A stretch of 64,000 nt of DNA, from positions 54,234 through 118,233 of the forward strand of contig JAPKHL010000001.1 in the NCBI GenBank assembly GCA_026646875.1. Reading direction: 5' to 3'. The notes under the pieces were generated by a model that worked only from the letters and a program-made list of their open reading frames with translations, did not search any database and was not told where the DNA came from. This stretch comes from Rhodocyclaceae bacterium. Lineage in GTDB: Bacteria > Pseudomonadota > Gammaproteobacteria > Burkholderiales > Rhodocyclaceae. Positions 44,604-54,052 of the stretch are shown piece after piece; within the stretch, counting starts at the first letter, position 1, and every line of letters starts with the position of its first letter. A program made the position numbers and the translations under genes.

Positions 44604-46757
44604 ATGTCCCGCGCCCACGTGGCCGCGACGCACTGGCTGGCCGCCAACCCGGCCGTCGAGCTGATGTCGCGCCTGAGCTACCCCAAGAAGATCCAGACCA
44701 TCGGCCTGATCGCCGGCATCGCCATCCTGCTGCTCACCGGCCAGCTGTTCTTCAGCCTCGCCGGGCAGATCGAGCGCGCCCGCCTCGAACGCACCGGACT
44801 GCGGCTGGTGCAGCCGCTGCGCGCGGCGATCGAGCCACTGCAGCAGCATCGCGGACTGTCCAATGCCTGGGCCAGCGGCGACGAGACCTATCGCAGCGAA
44901 CACGCCGCCGTGCTGCAGCCGGCCCTGCGCGCCACACGGCAGGCGGTGGACGCCCGCCTCGCCGAAGCCGACGCGGCGTTCCGGGAGCACATGCCGGCGC
45001 TCGCCGACGATCCGCGCTGGCTGGCGGCGCGGCGCGCCTGGGACGAAATCCGCGCGGACGGCGCGCCGACTCCGGGCAGCACCCTCGAACGCCACAACGA
45101 GGCCATCGCCCGCCTCAACGCGCTGCTCTCCTCGGCCGCCGACGCCACCCACCTCTCGGTCGACCCCTACGTCGGCACCTTCTACCTGGCGCAGCTGGTG
45201 GTGCGCCAGATGCCGGCGCTGATCGAGCACACCGCGCGCATCGGCATCTACGCCAGCCGCGAACTGCTGCGCGACGACAAGAACCTGCTGATCTCGCTCA
45301 ACACCATGACCGGCACCGGCCTCGAGGAAGTGCGCGAGATCATCGAGCAGAAGGTGGTGGTGACCATGCCCGGCCTCGGCAAGGCGCTGGGCAGCGATGC
45401 CGCGCGCCTGACCGGCGTCGCCGACGCGGTCGACACCTTCACCCAGCTCAAGCTGCTCGGCAAGCTCTTCGACGTCACCCCGGAGGCCTTCTTCGCCGGC
45501 ATGACCTGGGCCGGACGCCAGGAACTCGACGCCTTCCGCGTCGGCCCCCGCGACCTCTCGCTGGACAGCGGCGAGGCCATCGCCCCCGGCCCGATCGGCC
45601 GCATGTACGGCGCCCTGGATCAGTACGCGCGGCTGCTCGACGAGACCATCGAGCAGCGCATGTGGCGCCTCTACCAGCAGCTCGCGCTCAACCTGCTGGT
45701 CGCCTTCGGCGCGCTGCTGGTGGTGATCTACATGCTCTACGTGATGTATGTCTCCTTCCCGATCCGCAAGCTGATCGTCGCCACCGAGGAAGTCGCCGGC
45801 GGCAACCTCGACGTGAAGATGGCGATCGAGCGCAACGACGAGATCGGCCAGCTGGCGCGCGCCTTCAACACCATGACCGAGGCGGTCAAGTACAACCGCG
45901 ACAACCTCGAGCGGCTGGTCGGCGAACGCACCGCCGACCTCGCCGGGAAGAACCACCTGATCATGGAGAGCATCAACTACGCCCGCGTCATCCAGTCGTC
46001 CTTCCTGCGCGCCTCGCGGCAGGACATGGCAACCACGCTGAACGACTACTTCATGATCTGGGAACCGCGCGACACGGTCGGCGGCGACTACCTCTACTTC
46101 CGCCGCTTCGACGACGGCTACTTCTTCGCCGTGATCGACTGCACCGGCCACGGCGTGCCCGGCGCCTTCATGACGCTGATCATGGCCTCCTACCTCAACA
46201 ACCTGCTGACCGAGGACAACCGGCACGACCCGGCGGCGCTGCTCGGCCGCCTCAACCGCTCGGTCAAGCAGGCGCTCGGCCAGATCGAGGGGCAGGCAGC
46301 GCTCGACCTGCACGACGACGGCCACCGCTCGGACGACGGCATGGACGCCGCCTTCGCCTGGGTCGACACGCAGGCGCACACGCTGACCTACGCCGGCGCC
46401 AAGACACCGCTCCACTACCTGCCCCCGGCGGCCGACGCCACGGTGCAGACCCTCGACGGCCAGCGCACCGGCGTCGGCTACACCGACACCCCGCTCGACT
46501 TCGCCTGGGAGAACACCGTGCTACCGCTGCAGCCGGGCAGCGCCCTCTACGTCACCACCGACGGCATCATCGACCAGGTGGGCGAGCGCAAGCGCATTTC
46601 CTTCGGCAAGCGCCGCCTGCACCAGGCCATCCTCGCCGCGCGCGACCTGCCGATGAGCGCGCAGCAGCTGGCGATCCGCAACGCCCTCGGCGAACATCAG
46701 GGCGGACAGCCGCGCCGCGACGACGTGAGCATGTTCGCCTTCCGCTATCAGCCCTGA
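44604..46757 (+). CDS. siaA: SiaA-like membrane protein: N-terminal sensor, HAMP, PP2C-type SpoIIE phosphatase
   Basis: FPIRKLIVATEEVAGGNLDVKMAIERNDEIGQLARAFNTM HAMP; DTVGGDYLYFRRFDDGYFFAVIDCTGHGVPGAFMTLIM phosphatase. Confidence 0.85.
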   Translation: MSRAHVAATHWLAANPAVELMSRLSYPKKIQTIGLIAGIAILLLTGQLFFSLAGQIERARLERTGLRLVQPLRAAIEPLQQHRGLSNAWASGDETYRSEHAAVLQPALRATRQAVDARLAEADAAFREHMPALADDPRWLAARRAWDEIRADGAPTPGSTLERHNEAIARLNALLSSAADATHLSVDPYVGTFYLAQLVVRQMPALIEHTARIGIYASRELLRDDKNLLISLNTMTGTGLEEVREIIEQKVVVTMPGLGKALGSDAARLTGVADAVDTFTQLKLLGKLFDVTPEAFFAGMTWAGRQELDAFRVGPRDLSLDSGEAIAPGPIGRMYGALDQYARLLDETIEQRMWRLYQQLALNLLVAFGALLVVIYMLYVMYVSFPIRKLIVATEEVAGGNLDVKMAIERNDEIGQLARAFNTMTEAVKYNRDNLERLVGERTADLAGKNHLIMESINYARVIQSSFLRASRQDMATTLNDYFMIWEPRDTVGGDYLYFRRFDDGYFFAVIDCTGHGVPGAFMTLIMASYLNNLLTEDNRHDPAALLGRLNRSVKQALGQIEGQAALDLHDDGHRSDDGMDAAFAWVDTQAHTLTYAGAKTPLHYLPPAADATVQTLDGQRTGVGYTDTPLDFAWENTVLPLQPGSALYVTTDGIIDQVGERKRISFGKRRLHQAILAARDLPMSAQQLAIRNALGEHQGGQPRRDDVSMFAFRYQP

Positions 46758-46769
46758 ACCCCGACCCCC

Positions 46770-47333
46770 ATGAACATCCAGATCTTCAAGGCCTACCGCC
46801 AGTTCGTCACCGAGCAGGGCCTGCTCTTCTACTACGACGGCTACCTCTCGCAACCGATCATCACCGCCATGGGCGAAGCCCTGCGCGGCCGCCTGGAAGC
46901 CGAGGAAGCATCGAGCAAGGCGGCGCGCAAGGTGTTCTCCACCTTCATCGAGATGATGCAGAACATCGTCCATTACGCCGACCCGGACGGCCAGTCGGCG
47001 GTGCCGCGCGGCAACGTCGCCGTCGGCCGCCTCAACGATGCCTACTACATCGTCTCCGGCAACGCCATTGCCAGCGAGCACGTCCCGCGCCTGCGGGCCA
47101 AGCTCGAGGAAATCCGAACCATGTCGCTCGACGAGATCAAGGCCGAATACCGCCGCAAGCTGCGCGGCGACGAACAGGACGAGAACAGCAAGGGCGCCGG
47201 GCTCGGCTTCCTCACCGTCGCGCGCGAAACCTCGCAGCCGATCGAATTCCTCTTCGAACCCTTTCCCGGGAGCGGCGGCGCGCACGGCGCGTCCGCCCCG
47301 CTCTCCTTCTTCCACCTCAAGGCCACCATCTGA
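46770..47333 (+). CDS. siaB: SiaB-family protein kinase
   Basis: ARKVFSTFIEMMQNIVHYADPD, GAGLGFLTVARETSQPIEFLF; between siaA and siaC homologs. Confidence 0.82.
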   Translation: MNIQIFKAYRQFVTEQGLLFYYDGYLSQPIITAMGEALRGRLEAEEASSKAARKVFSTFIEMMQNIVHYADPDGQSAVPRGNVAVGRLNDAYYIVSGNAIASEHVPRLRAKLEEIRTMSLDEIKAEYRRKLRGDEQDENSKGAGLGFLTVARETSQPIEFLFEPFPGSGGAHGASAPLSFFHLKATI

Positions 47334-47373
47334 GGCCGGCCGCGCGCCCAGCCTCCGACCGGAGAACGAAACG

Positions 47374-47757
47374 ATGCAAGACCTGCACATCCCCGCCGAA
47401 CGCGACAAGCCCGAAGTCGACTTCCGCTTTTCCAGCCACCGGCTCGCCCTGCGCGGCGAATCCTTCCCCGAGAACGCGCTCGCCTTCTACGGCCCGGTGG
47501 TCTCGGCGCTGATGGAATACCTGGGCGCCACGCACGGCACCGAGATCACCGTCGACATCGAGCTGCGCTACTTCAACTCGAGCAGCACCAAGATCCTGCT
47601 CAACATCTTCCGCATGCTCGACGGCGCCTCGTCCAACGGCAACACGGTGCACCTCAACTGGCACCACGACCCCGAGGACGACACCATCGCCGAATTCGGC
47701 AACGACATCGCCAGCGACTTCATCACCCTCGACTTCCGGGCCGTGGCGACGGCCTGA
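47374..47757 (+). CDS. siaC: SiaC-like (DUF1987) regulatory protein
   Basis: GESFPENALAFYGPVVSAL, DIELRYFNSSSTKILLNIFRMLD. Confidence 0.85.
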   Translation: MQDLHIPAERDKPEVDFRFSSHRLALRGESFPENALAFYGPVVSALMEYLGATHGTEITVDIELRYFNSSSTKILLNIFRMLDGASSNGNTVHLNWHHDPEDDTIAEFGNDIASDFITLDFRAVATA

Positions 47758-47771
47758 ACGGAGACACGGCG

Positions 47772-48506
47772 ATGGAAGGACGGACGGCGGCGCCCGGGGA
47801 GTTCAACCTCTTCGAGCGCGAGGAAGGGATCGCCGAGGCCGCTCAGCGCGCCCTGGCATCGCCGGCGCTCGGCGACGACTGCCGCGCGATGCTGGCGCCG
47901 CTGCTCGACGGCTACCGGCACCTGCTGCGCGAAACGCGGCAGCTGATCCGCATCGCCGACCGCCGCGAGCGCGACCTCAACCGTCTCAACCGCAAGCTCG
48001 AGGCGCTGACGCGCACGCTCGCCTACCAGGCCGAGCACGACCCGCTGACCGGCGCCCTCAACAAGGGCGCCCTGCACGCACGCATCGGGCAGCTGCTGGC
48101 GGCCGGGCCGTTCAGCCTGCTGATCATGGACATCGATCACTTCAAGAAAATCAACGATACCTTCGGGCACCTGGCCGGCGACCGCGTCCTCGCCGGACTG
48201 GCCGACCGCCTGCAGGACATGATCGGCGAAGGCGACGCGCTCGGCCGCTTCGGCGGCGAGGAATTCATCGTGCTCAGCCGCGAGGGCTCCCTGCTCAAGG
48301 CACGCATGCTGGCCGAGCGGCTGCGCCGGGGCGTCGAGGCGGAACCGTTCGAGATCGACGGCACGGCGCCGATTCCGCTCACCCTGAGCATCGGCCTCGC
48401 CCTCGCCGAGAGCGAGGCCTCGGTCGACGCCCTGCTCGCGCGCGCCGATGTGGCGCTCTACGTGGCCAAGGAAAACGGCCGCAACCGCGTCGAGGTCGCC
48501 GGCTAG
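47772..48506 (+). CDS. siaD: SiaD-like diguanylate cyclase (GGDEF/GGEEF)
   Basis: DPLTGALNKGAL, MDIDHFKKINDTFGHLAGDRVL, RFGGEEFIVL. Confidence 0.88.
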   Translation: MEGRTAAPGEFNLFEREEGIAEAAQRALASPALGDDCRAMLAPLLDGYRHLLRETRQLIRIADRRERDLNRLNRKLEALTRTLAYQAEHDPLTGALNKGALHARIGQLLAAGPFSLLIMDIDHFKKINDTFGHLAGDRVLAGLADRLQDMIGEGDALGRFGGEEFIVLSREGSLLKARMLAERLRRGVEAEPFEIDGTAPIPLTLSIGLALAESEASVDALLARADVALYVAKENGRNRVEVAG

Positions 48507-48553
48507 GCGAACGCCCGCCGGCGGCCGGTGCCGGCCGCCGGGGCACCAGCACC

Positions 48554-49036
48554 TCAGACGAGGGCGTCGAGTTGCACCACCAGGCTGGCCTCGTAGCCGT
48601 TCCAGCACAACGGGATGGCGAAGGGCGGGCTGTGGGTGGCGGAGGCCGCGAGCGCCGCCGCGCCGGCGCTGCCGGCGAAGGTGCGCGGCGGCGAGATGCA
48701 CAGGCGATCGCCGAAATGCCGGCGGGCACGGCCGGAGAAGATGTTGGCGATCTCGCCGACGATGTCGAGATGCTGCTCGTCGGAAAAATCCGCCTGCCCC
48801 ATGCGCAGCAGCAGGTGACTGAGCAGCGAGCGCGGCGCCGAGAAGCAGATGCGGCCGCTGTAGCCGCCGCTGGCCTCGACGATGCCGTTGAAATCCCCCC
48901 AGGGCAGCGGCGCCCGCGCGTCGAGCAGGAAGGCGGTGCGCACCTGCGCCTTCTCGCCGCAGGTGGTTTCGAAAAAGTGCGTGACGGCCTCGGAGAAGAC
49001 CTCGATGTCCGCGGTTTCCAGTGCTTGCGCCTTCAA
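48554..49036 (-). CDS. CheX-like chemotaxis phosphatase (TTG start)
   Basis: DIVGEIANIFSGRARRHFG contains CheX-type E-x2-N motif; overlaps response regulator stop. Confidence 0.72.
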   Translation of the reverse strand: MKAQALETADIEVFSEAVTHFFETTCGEKAQVRTAFLLDARAPLPWGDFNGIVEASGGYSGRICFSAPRSLLSHLLLRMGQADFSDEQHLDIVGEIANIFSGRARRHFGDRLCISPPRTFAGSAGAAALAASATHSPPFAIPLCWNGYEASLVVQLDALV

Positions 49037-49404
49037 TTCATCAACTCCAGGAGAGCATCGACCAGCTGGTCGTCGTTGAACGGTTTGCGGATGAAGCCAT
49101 GCGCGCCCTTGCGGATCGCGCGCAGCGCGGTCATCTTGTCGCTGAGTGCGGAGACCACCAGGATGCGCGCCTCGGGCAGCTCGCCGGCGATCCGCTCGAT
49201 GCACTCCTCGCCGTCCATCAGCGGCATGGTCAGATCCATGGTGATCAGCGAGGGGCGATGCAGGCGGGCCAGCGACAGCGCGCCGAGCCCGTTCGACGCG
49301 GTGCCGACGATGTCCAGCGCCGGCAGGCGCGCATCCTGGCAAAGCCGGGCGATGCGGTTGCGGATGACCATCGAGTCATCGACGATCATGAGCGAAGGGG
49401 TCAT
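49033..49404 (-). CDS. CheY-like response regulator (single receiver)
   Basis: LMIVDDSMVIRNRIARL, ITMDLTMPLMDGEECI, VVSALSDKMTALRAIRKGAHGFIRKPF. Confidence 0.93.
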   Translation of the reverse strand: MTPSLMIVDDSMVIRNRIARLCQDARLPALDIVGTASNGLGALSLARLHRPSLITMDLTMPLMDGEECIERIAGELPEARILVVSALSDKMTALRAIRKGAHGFIRKPFNDDQLVDALLELMN

Positions 49405-49461
49405 CGGAAAATCCTCGGGTTTCGGGAAAACGGCGGGGAAAGACGGATCGGCCTGACGGAA

Positions 49462-51516
49462 CTAGGTTCCGAAGCGCAGCCGGAACTGCGTATAGGCGTT
49501 CGGCACGGTGCTCACGCGCAGGCGGGCGCCGGCCTGCTGCAGCGCGGCCTTCACCGCATCGAGCCCGACGCCGCGCCCGGCGTGCGCGTCGGCCGCGGCC
49601 CGGATGCTGAATCCGGGTTCGAACATCAGGCCGAGCGCGGCGCGGTCGTCGAGCGCCTCGACGCGCTCCGGGGCGTAGCCGAGCGCCAGCGCCCGCTGGC
49701 GCAGCTGTTCGGGCGAGATGCCGCGCCCGTCGTCGGACAGCGACAGCGTGAAGCCGCCGGCCTCGCGCGCGAGTTCCATGCGGATCACGCCTTCCGCCGC
49801 CTTGCCGGCGCCGACGCGCTCCTCGCTCGCCTCGATGCCGTGCGCCACGGCGTTGCACACGATCTGCGGCAGCGATTCGCGCAGCACGCGCAGCTGCGTC
49901 TCGCCGATCTCGGGCAGGCGGTGCGGCAGCACCGCCTCGAAGCGCACCTTCTTGCCGAGGTCGTGCGCGACATGCAGGGCGAGCTGCTCGATCTGCTCGA
50001 TCAGCGGACGGATCGGATGCGCCTCGCCGGCCGGTGCGGCGCCGCGCGCGCGGCCGGCGCGCTCGAGCACGCTGCCGACCAGCAGCAGCTGCTCGCGCAG
50101 CCCGGCCACCTCGACCGCCAGCGGGATCAGGTCGTCGCCGGAGAGGTCGCCGCGCCGGCGCAGCGGCGCGAGGCTCTCCTCGAAACCGTGCGCCTGGCGG
50201 AGGACGGTGCCGAGGCCGAGCGCGCCGGCCTCGCCCTTGATCGAATGGACCATGCGGAAGATGTGGTTGACCAGCTGGCTGTAGGCGCGCGCCTCGGGCC
50301 TGACCTCCTCCAGCTCGCGGTTGATGCCGAGCAGCTTGGCCTCGGCCGATTCGAGAAAGTCGCGCACCGCCGCCGGCTCCTGGTCGAGCACCGCGAGCAG
50401 CAGGCCGACGTCGGATTCGGCCCGCGCATTGGCGCCAGCAAGCTCCTGCTGCAGGCGGATCTTCTGCGTCACGTCGAATACCGTGACCAGCAGCGCGGCG
50501 ACCTCGCCGCCCTCCTCGACCTGGGTGAATTCGAAGGTCAGGTAGCTGTCCGCGCCCGCCTTGCCGCCCGCGCTGGCGAAGGGGATCTCGCGCAGCGGAT
50601 TGAGCTCCTCGAGCAGCGCCGGCTTGACCCGCTTGTTGAAGAGCAGGCCGACGTATTCCTCGGCGGCCTCGTGCACCTCCGGCGCCAGGCGCCCGGCCAG
50701 CTGTTCGAGGAAGCGCGCGCCGGGCGCCATGCCGGCGCCGAGCAGGCGGGCAATCGAGGCCGAGCGCTGCACGCCGACGCGGCCGTCGCGCTCGAGCAGG
50801 AACAGGCCCTCGCGGACCGTGTCGAGAATCCGCGTCGTTTCGCGGCGCGCGGCCTCGGTGCGGCGGTCGCTCTCGGAGAGGCGGCGCAGGAACTTGAAGA
50901 CGATGAAGACGAAATTGAGCGTGGCCAGCAGGATCGCGCCGATCTGGATGCGGCGCAGCGCGGCGGCGTGCGCGCGCGCCGAGCCCTCGAGGTGCGCCGA
51001 GAGATCGTCCGCCTGCTGCATCAGGCGGACGTTGCGCGTCACCGCCTTGTTCACCGCGTAGTCCACGTCGGCCTGCGCCGGCGCCGCGCCGGCGAGCAGC
51101 GGCGCCACCGCCTCGGAAAGCGGGAACCACTGGCGGCCCAGGTCGTCGAGCTTCTCCATGCCCTCGGCGTCGTTGCCCAGACCGCTGCCGACCGACCCCC
51201 AGGCGCCCGGCGCATCGTTCTTCAGGCGGTCGAAGGCGCGCGCGAAGGCGGCGTGCGATTCGGCGATCTGCGATGCGCTGGTCTGCGTCGATTGCTCCTC
51301 GCGCAGTTCGTGCGAGAGGGTCAGCAGCGCCTTGGTGAGCTGCTGCGAATACACCCGCAGCTCGCCGGCGGCGTTGATCCGCGAGGCATCGGCGCCGATC
51401 TGCAGCGAGGTGTACAGATTGAAGAACAGAACACCGAGGTCGAGGACGAGAAACAGCCCGATCGCCAGAAAGAGGTCGCGATACTTGCCAAAACGCAGAT
51501 CAGCCCGGGGGGTCAT
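49462..51516 (-). CDS. CheA-like histidine kinase: PilJ-type N-terminus, PAS-like region, HPt, HATPase; no CheW-like C-terminus
   Basis: INAAGELRVYSQQLTKALLTLS; FRMVHSIKGEAGALGLGTVL HPt; VCNAVAHGIE...LSDDGRGISPEQL...GRGVGLDAVKAAL. Confidence 0.85.
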   Translation of the reverse strand: MTPRADLRFGKYRDLFLAIGLFLVLDLGVLFFNLYTSLQIGADASRINAAGELRVYSQQLTKALLTLSHELREEQSTQTSASQIAESHAAFARAFDRLKNDAPGAWGSVGSGLGNDAEGMEKLDDLGRQWFPLSEAVAPLLAGAAPAQADVDYAVNKAVTRNVRLMQQADDLSAHLEGSARAHAAALRRIQIGAILLATLNFVFIVFKFLRRLSESDRRTEAARRETTRILDTVREGLFLLERDGRVGVQRSASIARLLGAGMAPGARFLEQLAGRLAPEVHEAAEEYVGLLFNKRVKPALLEELNPLREIPFASAGGKAGADSYLTFEFTQVEEGGEVAALLVTVFDVTQKIRLQQELAGANARAESDVGLLLAVLDQEPAAVRDFLESAEAKLLGINRELEEVRPEARAYSQLVNHIFRMVHSIKGEAGALGLGTVLRQAHGFEESLAPLRRRGDLSGDDLIPLAVEVAGLREQLLLVGSVLERAGRARGAAPAGEAHPIRPLIEQIEQLALHVAHDLGKKVRFEAVLPHRLPEIGETQLRVLRESLPQIVCNAVAHGIEASEERVGAGKAAEGVIRMELAREAGGFTLSLSDDGRGISPEQLRQRALALGYAPERVEALDDRAALGLMFEPGFSIRAAADAHAGRGVGLDAVKAALQQAGARLRVSTVPNAYTQFRLRFGT

Positions 51517-51601: not shown

Positions 51602-54052
51602 TCAGGGCGTTTCGGGAGTGCGCCCGCGCCAGAGCGCCGACCAGTATCCGGCCGGTTGCGGCCGGCCGTAGAGGTAGCCCTGCAGGAGATCGCACTGGTG
51701 CGCGACCAGAAAATCGCGCTGTCCGGTCGTTTCGACGCCCTCGGCGACGACCCGCAGGCCAAGGCTGTGGGCCAGTGCCAGCGTGGCGGCGCTGATCGCG
51801 GCGTCGTTCGTGTCGTCCTCGATGTCGCGCACGAAGGCGCGGTCGAGCTTGAGCGTCTGGATGGGCAGCAGCTTGAGGTAGGCCAGCGAGGAATAGCCGG
51901 TGCCGAAATCGTCGATCGCCAGGTCGACGCCCAGCGCCCGCAACGCGCGCAGCTGGTCGATGGCGTGCGCGGGGTCGGCCATGGCCACCGATTCGGTGAT
52001 CTCCAGTTCGATGTCGCCGGAGCGCAGGCCGTGCCGGCTCATCGCCGACGCCACCTCGCCGACCAGCTGCGGCGAGCGCAGCTGCTGCGCGGAGAGGTTG
52101 ACCGCCATGCCCAGGTCGAAGCCCTCGCGGCGCCAGGCCGCCAGCTGCCGGCAGGCCTCCTCGAGCACCCACGCACCGAGCGCCTCGATCATCCCGGTTT
52201 CCTCGGCCACCGGAATGAAGCGCAGCGGCGGGATCAGCCCCTGCTGCGGATGATTCCAGCGCACCAGCGCCTCGACGCCGCGCAGCGTGCCGTCGGCGGC
52301 ATTGACCTTGGGCTGGTAGTAGAGCATGAACTGGCCGCCGGCCAGCGCCGCGCGCAGATCGCGCTCGAGCAGCATGCGCTCGCTGGCCGCCGCGTTCATC
52401 CGCGCGGTGAAGAACTGGTAGTTGTTCCGCCCCTGGTCCTTGGCGTGGTACATCGCCGTGTCGGCATGCTTCATCAGCGTCTCGCCGTCCTCGCCGTCCT
52501 CGCCGCCCGCCGCGAAGACGCTGATGCCGATGCTGGCGGCCGAATGCAGGCGGTGCCCGGCCACCGCGTACTCGGCGGCCAGCGCGCGCAGGATTTTCTC
52601 GGCCAGCGGCGCGGCGTCCATTCCTTCGGCAAGGCCGGTGAGGACGACGACGAACTCGTCCCCGCCGAGCCGGGCGACGATGTCGCTTTCGCGCACGCAG
52701 CGCTCGAGGCGACGGGCCACCTCGACCAGCAGCTGGTCACCGGCATGGTGGCCGAGGGTGTCGTTGATCACCTTGAAGCGGTCCATGTCGATGAACATCA
52801 CCGCCAGCACGGTGTTGTCGCGGCGCGCCTGGAGAATCGCCTGCGACAGGCGGTTCTCCAGGTTGAAGCGGTTGAACAGGCCGGTCAGCGGATCGTGGTG
52901 CGCGAGGTAATCGATGCGCGCCTCGGCGGCCTTGCGCTCGCTGATGTCGGTGAAGCTGGCGATGTGGTGCGTCACCTCGCCCGCCGCGTCGCGGATCACC
53001 GAGATCGCCGCCCATTTCGGATAGGCACCGCCGTCCTTGCGCCGGTCCCACAGCTCGCCCTGCCAGAAGCCGGTGCTGTGCACCGCGGCCCACAGCACCT
53101 GGTAGGTTTCCGGCGGCGTGTGGCCGGAGGCGAGGACACGCGGATTCTGGCCGCGCAGGTCGTCGATCTCGAAGCCGGTGTAGTGGGTCAGCGCCTGGTT
53201 GATGGCGACGATGCGGTTCTCGCGGTCGGTGATCAGGATCGCCTCGCCGCTGTGCTCGAAGACATTCGCGTAGAGGCGCAGCGCCTCTTCCGCCGCCAGC
53301 CGCTCGCGGTCGCGCCGGCGGACCTGCTGCCAGGCCCAGCCGATGCCGCCCAGACCGAGCAGCCAGATCAGGCCGTGGCTGAGGCCCAGATCGACCCGCG
53401 CCTCGGCGATGCGCTGGTAGTAGGGGGTCAGCGGCAGGTTGAGGCCGGTGGCGCCGCGCATGTCGCCGGTCTTGTAGCCGAGGATGGCGTGGCACTTGTC
53501 GCACCCCGGCTCCATGAACATCGCGCGCAGGTAGCGCAGGTGCGGCACGCCGTCCAGGTCGGCGACCGACCACACCTCGGTCTTCTCGCCGCGCGCGAAG
53601 GCTTCGAGCTGCGCGCGCTCCCAGTCGTCCGGGGCGTTGCCGGGGTTGAGCTGGCGCAACCCGATGATGCGGCCGCGTATGCCGTACTGCTCGGCGTAGC
53701 GATCCATCATCTGGCGCAGCATCGAGGCCGGATTGAGCAGGGTCAGCTGCTGGCCGTCCACGGTCGTCACGTCGCGGTCGGGGATGTGCGACAGCCAGGG
53801 CACCGACTGCTGCCTCTCGGTGATCGGCACATACACGCCGCCGTGCTCGGTGCCCCAGCGGCGCAGCGAGATGTCCTTGTTGAGGTTGGCGCGCGCCTCG
53901 GCGTAGGCGGTTTCCATCGCCTGCGATTCGGAACGGTGCAGGTTCCAGGCCAGCGACAGCGCGAGCACCAGGGTCCACAGCAGCGCCGCGAAGAGGGACA
54001 GGCTGGACCGGAGTGGCCCGATCTGCGTGCCGGTGGCCGGAGGGGTGGGCAT
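51602..54052 (-). CDS. Membrane PAS-GGDEF-EAL protein with Tll0287/DUF3365-like periplasmic CxxCH sensor
   Basis: MEPGCDKCHAILGYKTGDMRGATGLNLPLTPYY; RLGGDEFVVVL; GVEALVRWNHPQQG. Confidence 0.88.
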   Translation of the reverse strand: MPTPPATGTQIGPLRSSLSLFAALLWTLVLALSLAWNLHRSESQAMETAYAEARANLNKDISLRRWGTEHGGVYVPITERQQSVPWLSHIPDRDVTTVDGQQLTLLNPASMLRQMMDRYAEQYGIRGRIIGLRQLNPGNAPDDWERAQLEAFARGEKTEVWSVADLDGVPHLRYLRAMFMEPGCDKCHAILGYKTGDMRGATGLNLPLTPYYQRIAEARVDLGLSHGLIWLLGLGGIGWAWQQVRRRDRERLAAEEALRLYANVFEHSGEAILITDRENRIVAINQALTHYTGFEIDDLRGQNPRVLASGHTPPETYQVLWAAVHSTGFWQGELWDRRKDGGAYPKWAAISVIRDAAGEVTHHIASFTDISERKAAEARIDYLAHHDPLTGLFNRFNLENRLSQAILQARRDNTVLAVMFIDMDRFKVINDTLGHHAGDQLLVEVARRLERCVRESDIVARLGGDEFVVVLTGLAEGMDAAPLAEKILRALAAEYAVAGHRLHSAASIGISVFAAGGEDGEDGETLMKHADTAMYHAKDQGRNNYQFFTARMNAAASERMLLERDLRAALAGGQFMLYYQPKVNAADGTLRGVEALVRWNHPQQGLIPPLRFIPVAEETGMIEALGAWVLEEACRQLAAWRREGFDLGMAVNLSAQQLRSPQLVGEVASAMSRHGLRSGDIELEITESVAMADPAHAIDQLRALRALGVDLAIDDFGTGYSSLAYLKLLPIQTLKLDRAFVRDIEDDTNDAAISAATLALAHSLGLRVVAEGVETTGQRDFLVAHQCDLLQGYLYGRPQPAGYWSALWRGRTPETP

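Follow-up and report, generated by a model that had tools for sequence, protein, structure and literature searches.

Conserved kinase, receiver and CheX cassettes in nitrate-use operons suggest an undescribed, probably nitrate-type, signalling module

Introduction

The core domains of CheA in a genome-wide survey are HPt, dimerization, HATPase and CheW, and the CheW domain was present in 100% of CheAs (PMC10782961). In NarX and NarQ, the P-box supplies the nitrate pocket as a G-x-x-R motif (PMC8199190). The nitrate pocket of McpN is formed by an N-box with R61, and the PilJ domains of the PilJ receptor, which are without the N-box, showed no nitrate binding (PMC6381276). In NarX, NarQ and McpN alike, two TM helices bracket a periplasmic helical sensor of the PilJ type, whose pocket has G-x-x-R at its core. 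They differ in their outputs, NarX and NarQ using NarL and NarP, and McpN a CheA array.

The window analysed here, a stretch of 64,000 nucleotides from a Rhodocyclaceae bacterium, carries on its minus strand three adjacent genes encoding a membrane HPt–HATPase sensor kinase, a stand-alone CheY-like receiver (RR) and a predicted CheX-family phosphatase. A sequence-only reading had picked these genes out as a candidate for a poorly described module, and a search of open-licence papers for a description of a kinase–RR–CheX cassette found none. The three-gene signalling module is real, and is undescribed in the literature searched. The HmrABCX pathway of Caulobacter was considered as a counterpart and rejected, since HmrX is an HPt. 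Going beyond the earlier reading, the sensor has a nitrate-type P-box and the cassette is repeatedly sited in nitrate assimilation operons of other lineages.

A CheA-like kinase without a CheW domain

The kinase gene (49462..51516, minus strand) encodes a protein of 684 aa that ends after the ATPase, an assignment resting on Pfam, AlphaFold, Foldseek and matches to CheA P4. Pfam recognizes PilJ (30.6 bits), Hpt (33.2 bits) and HATPase_c (46.6 bits), each above gathering, whilst searches for CheW and H-kinase_dim gave no match; this is the single kinase with PilJ, HPt and HATPase but no CheW that had been proposed. The PAS-like region that was also proposed has no Pfam match. It is seen instead in the alpha/beta secondary structure of the AlphaFold model, which places a PAS-like cytoplasmic domain at residues 236–348 (50473..50811, minus strand). 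Two TM segments (TM1, residues 15–33; TM2, residues 192–210) enclose a periplasmic helical sensor of the PilJ/NarX type. The model (mean pLDDT 84.2, pTM 0.51) orders the protein as a helical periplasmic bundle, the PAS-like domain, a coil (350–377), the HPt helices and the ATPase.

The HPt domain (Pfam Hpt; residues 381–490; 50047..50376, minus strand) holds the putative phospho-acceptor H424 within HSIKGEAGALGL, and both H424 and K427 are invariant in 100/100 kinase relatives. The ATPase (residues 502–683; 49468..50013, minus strand) is identified as CheA P4-type by Pfam, PDB matches, Foldseek and alignment, and its closest solved structures are those of CheA P4. Its N, G1 and G2 boxes are intact in the window kinase (N555; D595, G597 and G599; G647, G649 and G651) and essentially invariant across up to 100 sequences. 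The concern, raised with the original proposal, that the HPt histidine or the ATP-binding residues might be missing can thus be set aside. Every one of the 100 kinase relatives ends at the ATPase, with at most 19 residues following it. Searches of the kinase for HAMP and HisKA gave no match, HPt and P4 standing in place of HAMP/DHp. No P3 dimerization hairpin appears in the model, where HPt helix 460–490 is followed by ATPase helix 502–519, an absence to be read alongside the low sensitivity of Pfam for P3 (PMC10782961).

The kinase shares with CheA an HPt that has a phosphorylatable His in an HSIKGxA-type motif, and a P4-type HATPase_c whose best PDB matches are CheA; a CheA-like kinase would be expected to transfer phosphoryl groups to a stand-alone CheY. 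Unlike CheA, however, it comes with a TM sensor and a PAS domain of its own, and it is without a CheW domain, a P3 hairpin in the model, or a receptor or CheW partner. Identification as a CheA was rejected because CheW is a defining domain and is missing, and no P3 is visible. The chemistry of the kinase may nevertheless resemble that of CheA.

The receiver and the CheX-family protein

The RR gene (49033..49404, minus strand; 123 aa; Pfam Response_reg, 83 bits) encodes a single-domain receiver with no output domain. The residues expected of such a receiver are all present, namely the pair D9/D10, the acceptor D57, S/T at position 85 (S85) and K107, and they are invariant in 84/84 sequences. 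The best solved relatives of the RR are T. maritima CheY, which is part of a system of the CheX/CheC type, and archaeal CheY, for which the RR profile gives 115 bits; for E. coli CheY it gives 68 bits. Such a kinship fits a CheX-serviced regulator whose dephosphorylation is predicted.

The predicted phosphatase gene (48554..49036, minus strand; 160 aa) begins with a TTG start codon, in a 4-nt overlap with the RR stop. Its product scores 51.4 bits with Pfam PF13690 (cut-off 27), and the AlphaFold model of this product (pLDDT 90.5) finds its best PDB matches exclusively among CheX/CheC folds, with a Foldseek probability of 1.00 to CheX entries; the matching solved CheX structures include those of Thermotoga (T. 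maritima 1xko/1squ) and Borrelia. HMM and fold therefore agree on the CheX homology, which the sequence-only reading had named as a point on which its proposal could fail. Its outline of a stand-alone receiver followed by a CheX-like protein with an E-x2-N motif likewise stands, on the strength of Response_reg, PF13690 and the motif itself (E95-I-A-N98), in which E95 and N98 are invariant in 97/97 sequences. The CheX fold and a single E-x2-N motif are shared with the CheX, CheC and FliY phosphatases of CheY-P. Unlike these, the cassette protein belongs to a distinct proteobacterial subfamily that is tied to the cassette and not to a chemotaxis operon.

Conservation of the three-gene unit

A scan with the single kinase sequence gave no matches, whereas an alignment-based scan found relatives at 80 loci in named genomes; contig ends truncate 4 of these, which leaves 76 testable. 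In all 76 of these kinase-selected loci, kinase, RR and CheX lie on one strand. An independent search based on CheX gave 15 strong matches in 399 genomes of the order, the window included, with 14 of the 15 in a cassette; among 369 genomes of the class there were strong matches in 11 further genomes, from other families, and all 11 are cassettes. The order is kept in 25/26 genomes found by the CheX subfamily. Since it is so consistently preserved (76/76 and 25/26), the association is not a matter of chance, and the search for the same gene order elsewhere that had been recommended finds it conserved far beyond chance. The cassette occurs in Beta- and Gammaproteobacteria, at nearly a hundred other loci.

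CheX matches below about 55 bits stand alone, without kinase or RR partners, and this bimodal score distribution sets the cassette-bound CheX proteins apart as a subfamily of their own. Pairwise distances among the three proteins correlate with r = 0.88–0.91 across 84 loci (permutation maximum 0.09), a pattern such as would be left by genes inherited together. Same-strand flanking genes with a gap of <50 bp are found at 3/87 loci downstream and 5/89 upstream; tight coupling to a flanking gene being so rare, the unit consists of these three genes. No relatives were found in viral contigs and plasmids, which gives no hint that phages or plasmids carry the cassette.

Several loci vary this arrangement. 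One genome of the class (G572) has three separate cassettes (L204, L205, L206), and another (G516) has a tandem pair with three CheX copies (L202, 6742–14431), in which one RR is directly followed by two CheX genes. At L203 (7113–8357, plus strand) a gene for a Ser/Thr protein kinase with a fused receiver starts 4 bp after CheX, and its product may be an output protein in that lineage. The kinase at L208 (5147–7706, G586) is split over three ORFs beside an intact RR and CheX, possibly a decayed or frameshifted member. An orphan CheX (L085, 9638–10129, G132) is the sole strong subfamily match without an adjoining kinase or cassette RR.

A nitrate-type sensor and nitrate assimilation operons

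Alignment of 100 kinases, read against the published consensus motifs, identifies a P-box/N-box-like nitrate-pocket motif at residues 47–58 (I-N-A-A-G-E-L-R-V-Y-S-Q; 51343..51378, minus strand). The window kinase has G51-x-x-R54, the G-x-x-R of the NarX/NarQ P-box. Set against the McpN N-box, [IVL]-[ND]-x-A-G-x-Q-R-M-L-[ST]-Q, the window's INAAGELRVYSQ has 3 mismatches; its P-box (AGELRVYSQQ) is not a strict N-box, and is NarX-like rather than McpN-like. Across the 100 kinases G51 is kept in 96%, R54 in 97%, Q58 in 97% and N48 in 90%, positions that correspond to residues forming or flanking the nitrate pocket in NarX, NarQ and McpN (PMC8199190, PMC6381276); the strict N-box is exact in 27/100. 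Mean conservation is 0.73 over the N-box stretch versus 0.47 over the whole sensor, and the motif is lost in three divergent members (L079, L080, L082). The kinase thus has the helical sensor and pocket core of NarX, NarQ and McpN. Unlike NarX and NarQ it is without HAMP/DHp, unlike McpN it is without an MCP signalling domain, and its output would run through HPt, the CheY-like RR and CheX.

Loci with at least two nitrate assimilation genes flanking the cassette were classed as nas-adjacent, and these number 26/110. The typical order, in Comamonadaceae and neighbours, is an ANTAR or NIT-ANTAR regulator (nasT/nasR), nrtA, nrtB, nrtD, [kinase-RR-CheX], narK, nirB, nirD, nasA. A Thiobacillus MAG (L161) has nasT-[cassette]-nrtABD, and other arrangements occur at L128 and at L211, the latter in a genome of another family with nirB-nirD-nasA nearby. 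NrtB (TIGR01183), NrtCD (TIGR01184), NirB and NirD among the neighbours score above NCBIfam cut-offs, and further neighbours are NarK-family, ANTAR and NIT-ANTAR proteins (ANTAR and NIT by Pfam). On a rough estimate, a nas cluster lies within 9 kb of ~1% or less of random loci, which makes chance adjacency unlikely. Cassettes in nitrate-use operons suggest an undescribed, probably nitrate-type, signalling module. In the nas-linked loci the cassette shares an operon neighbourhood with NasS–NasT/NasR, the ANTAR genes adjoining it.

The nas-adjacent loci are unevenly spread over the kinase tree: a single clade of 22 accounts for 21 of the 26, and the tree as a whole requires at least 5 changes of label. 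The window kinase belongs to another clade, of 34 sequences (SH-aLRT 100), with 0/34 nas-adjacent members. As Polaromonas sp. A23 carries one member from each clade (L104 and L133), the nas-linked and window clades are paralogues, and they may differ in ligand. NapA is above cut-off in 10/31 cassette carriers versus 25/61 relatives generally, and so is not enriched; NarG is found in 6/31 carriers. At L157 (18930–19721, plus strand), a gene between nirB and nirD encodes a protein of 263 aa that begins with a signal-like stretch and contains the N-box-like motif INKAGRQRMLSQR; it is possibly a soluble nitrate-type sensor.

Proposed mechanism and alternative readings

From the established domains, catalytic residues, gene order, motif and operon context we infer the following scheme of ligand, phosphotransfer, phosphatase activity and output. 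The PilJ-type helical sensor would bind a ligand in the periplasm, in the ancestral system most likely nitrate or nitrite, and the signal would pass through TM2, the PAS-like domain and the coiled coil to the CheA-P4-type ATPase. The ATPase would phosphorylate H424 of the built-in HPt, from which the phosphoryl group would move on to the neighbouring RR, at D57. Phosphorylated RR would act by binding a partner protein encoded outside the cassette, and CheX would hydrolyse RR-P by means of its E-x2-N motif, so setting the lifetime of the signal. On the sequence evidence, such a circuit of sensing, phosphorylation and dephosphorylation is very probable. Of the sequence-only account of this circuit, the self-contained module without a CheW domain or MCP partner holds, and its three genes prove to be strictly conserved together; the tie to SiaABCD is not supported. 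The cassette is probably a receptor-independent, CheX-gated two-component system made of chemotaxis-type parts and ancestrally of nitrate/nitrite type. Nitrate or nitrite as the ancestral ligand is itself the likelier case; for the window's own kinase this ligand has slightly less than an even chance. We entertain, at a similar level just under even, a broader proposal: an undescribed nitrate/nitrite-sensing family in which a CheA-like kinase, its NarX-type sensor fused to HPt-P4, works with its own CheY and CheX and without receptors, CheW or arrays, as a portable module repeatedly recruited into nas operons beside NasT/NasR. If true, a chemotaxis phospho-core can work stand-alone and array-free, with a dedicated phosphatase, and nitrate becomes a concrete candidate ligand for a kinase family without a known signal. 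Furthermore, nitrate assimilation, where NasS–NasT and NasR act by ligand-controlled RNA antitermination (PMC3795266), would gain an additional, phosphorylation-based sensor.

The same phospho-circuit could serve another ligand in the window clade, the GxxR being inherited PilJ-bundle structure or a site for some other small anion, with only the nas-linked clades sensing nitrate. The lack of nas-adjacent loci in that clade and the variant P-box of the window kinase make this quite possible, if somewhat doubtful, since the pocket G and R are kept across nearly the whole family, window included, and the window's genome encodes NapA, NirB and, on the window's own contig and ~30 kb before it, NarG. 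Service to flagellar or type IV pilus chemosensory machinery, with RR as an extra CheY and CheX tuning motor signalling, is unlikely. CheX, CheY and the CheA-type ATPase are indeed chemotaxis families, and the genome has ordinary CheW-bearing chemosensory genes (CheA/CheW), but these che loci sit on other contigs (C86 and C100), the cassette is without a CheW domain, MCP or other che gene, and its recurrent neighbours are nitrate genes. The CheX/CheC fold also includes the switch protein FliM (Foldseek), which is not a phosphatase, and the cassette encodes no other output protein. CheX might on these grounds be an output adaptor or RR-P scaffold, a reading that the invariance of the phosphatase motif renders very improbable.

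Equally improbable is control of c-di-GMP together with the adjacent SiaABCD operon and an upstream GGDEF-EAL protein. As had been noted, the cassette converges on siaD, the gap to the siaD stop being 47 bp (48507..48553, no strand assigned); by sequence it contains a GC hairpin, whose folding as a terminator is no better than that of shuffles (z-score -0.69). The SiaABCD-like operon (44604–48506, plus strand) encodes SiaA (717 aa), a SiaB-family kinase, SiaC (PF09345) and a GGDEF protein, SiaD, and looks intact; all four score below NCBIfam equivalog cut-offs, and the SiaB-family cut-off is exceeded. A check on SiaABCD co-occurrence had been called for, and it goes against a link: in 61 related genomes SiaC occurs in 2/7 cassette carriers versus 7/54 non-carriers, and sia genes adjoin the cassette in this window only. 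In the closest genome with both (G017), siaABC are 69–82% identical and on another contig, and the 244 bp that follow its CheX encode no SiaD. A functional link between cassette and SiaABCD was accordingly rejected, the adjacency being private to this genome and without co-occurrence support, and the convergence with siaD is best read as coincidence. On the other side, a GGDEF-EAL gene (51602–54052, minus strand) lies upstream of the kinase on the same strand, with a gap of 85 bp, and GGDEF or EAL proteins occupy position -1 in 6/83 loci. Five of the six, however, come from one Dechloromonas-type cluster, in opposite orientation, and a conserved c-di-GMP neighbour was rejected as a general feature, GGDEF-EAL at -1 being limited to the window and that cluster. 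The N-terminal domain of the window's GGDEF-EAL protein is Tll0287-like and includes a heme-binding CxxCH motif (EPGCDKCHAILGYK); the protein is possibly a redox- or gas-sensing c-di-GMP enzyme.
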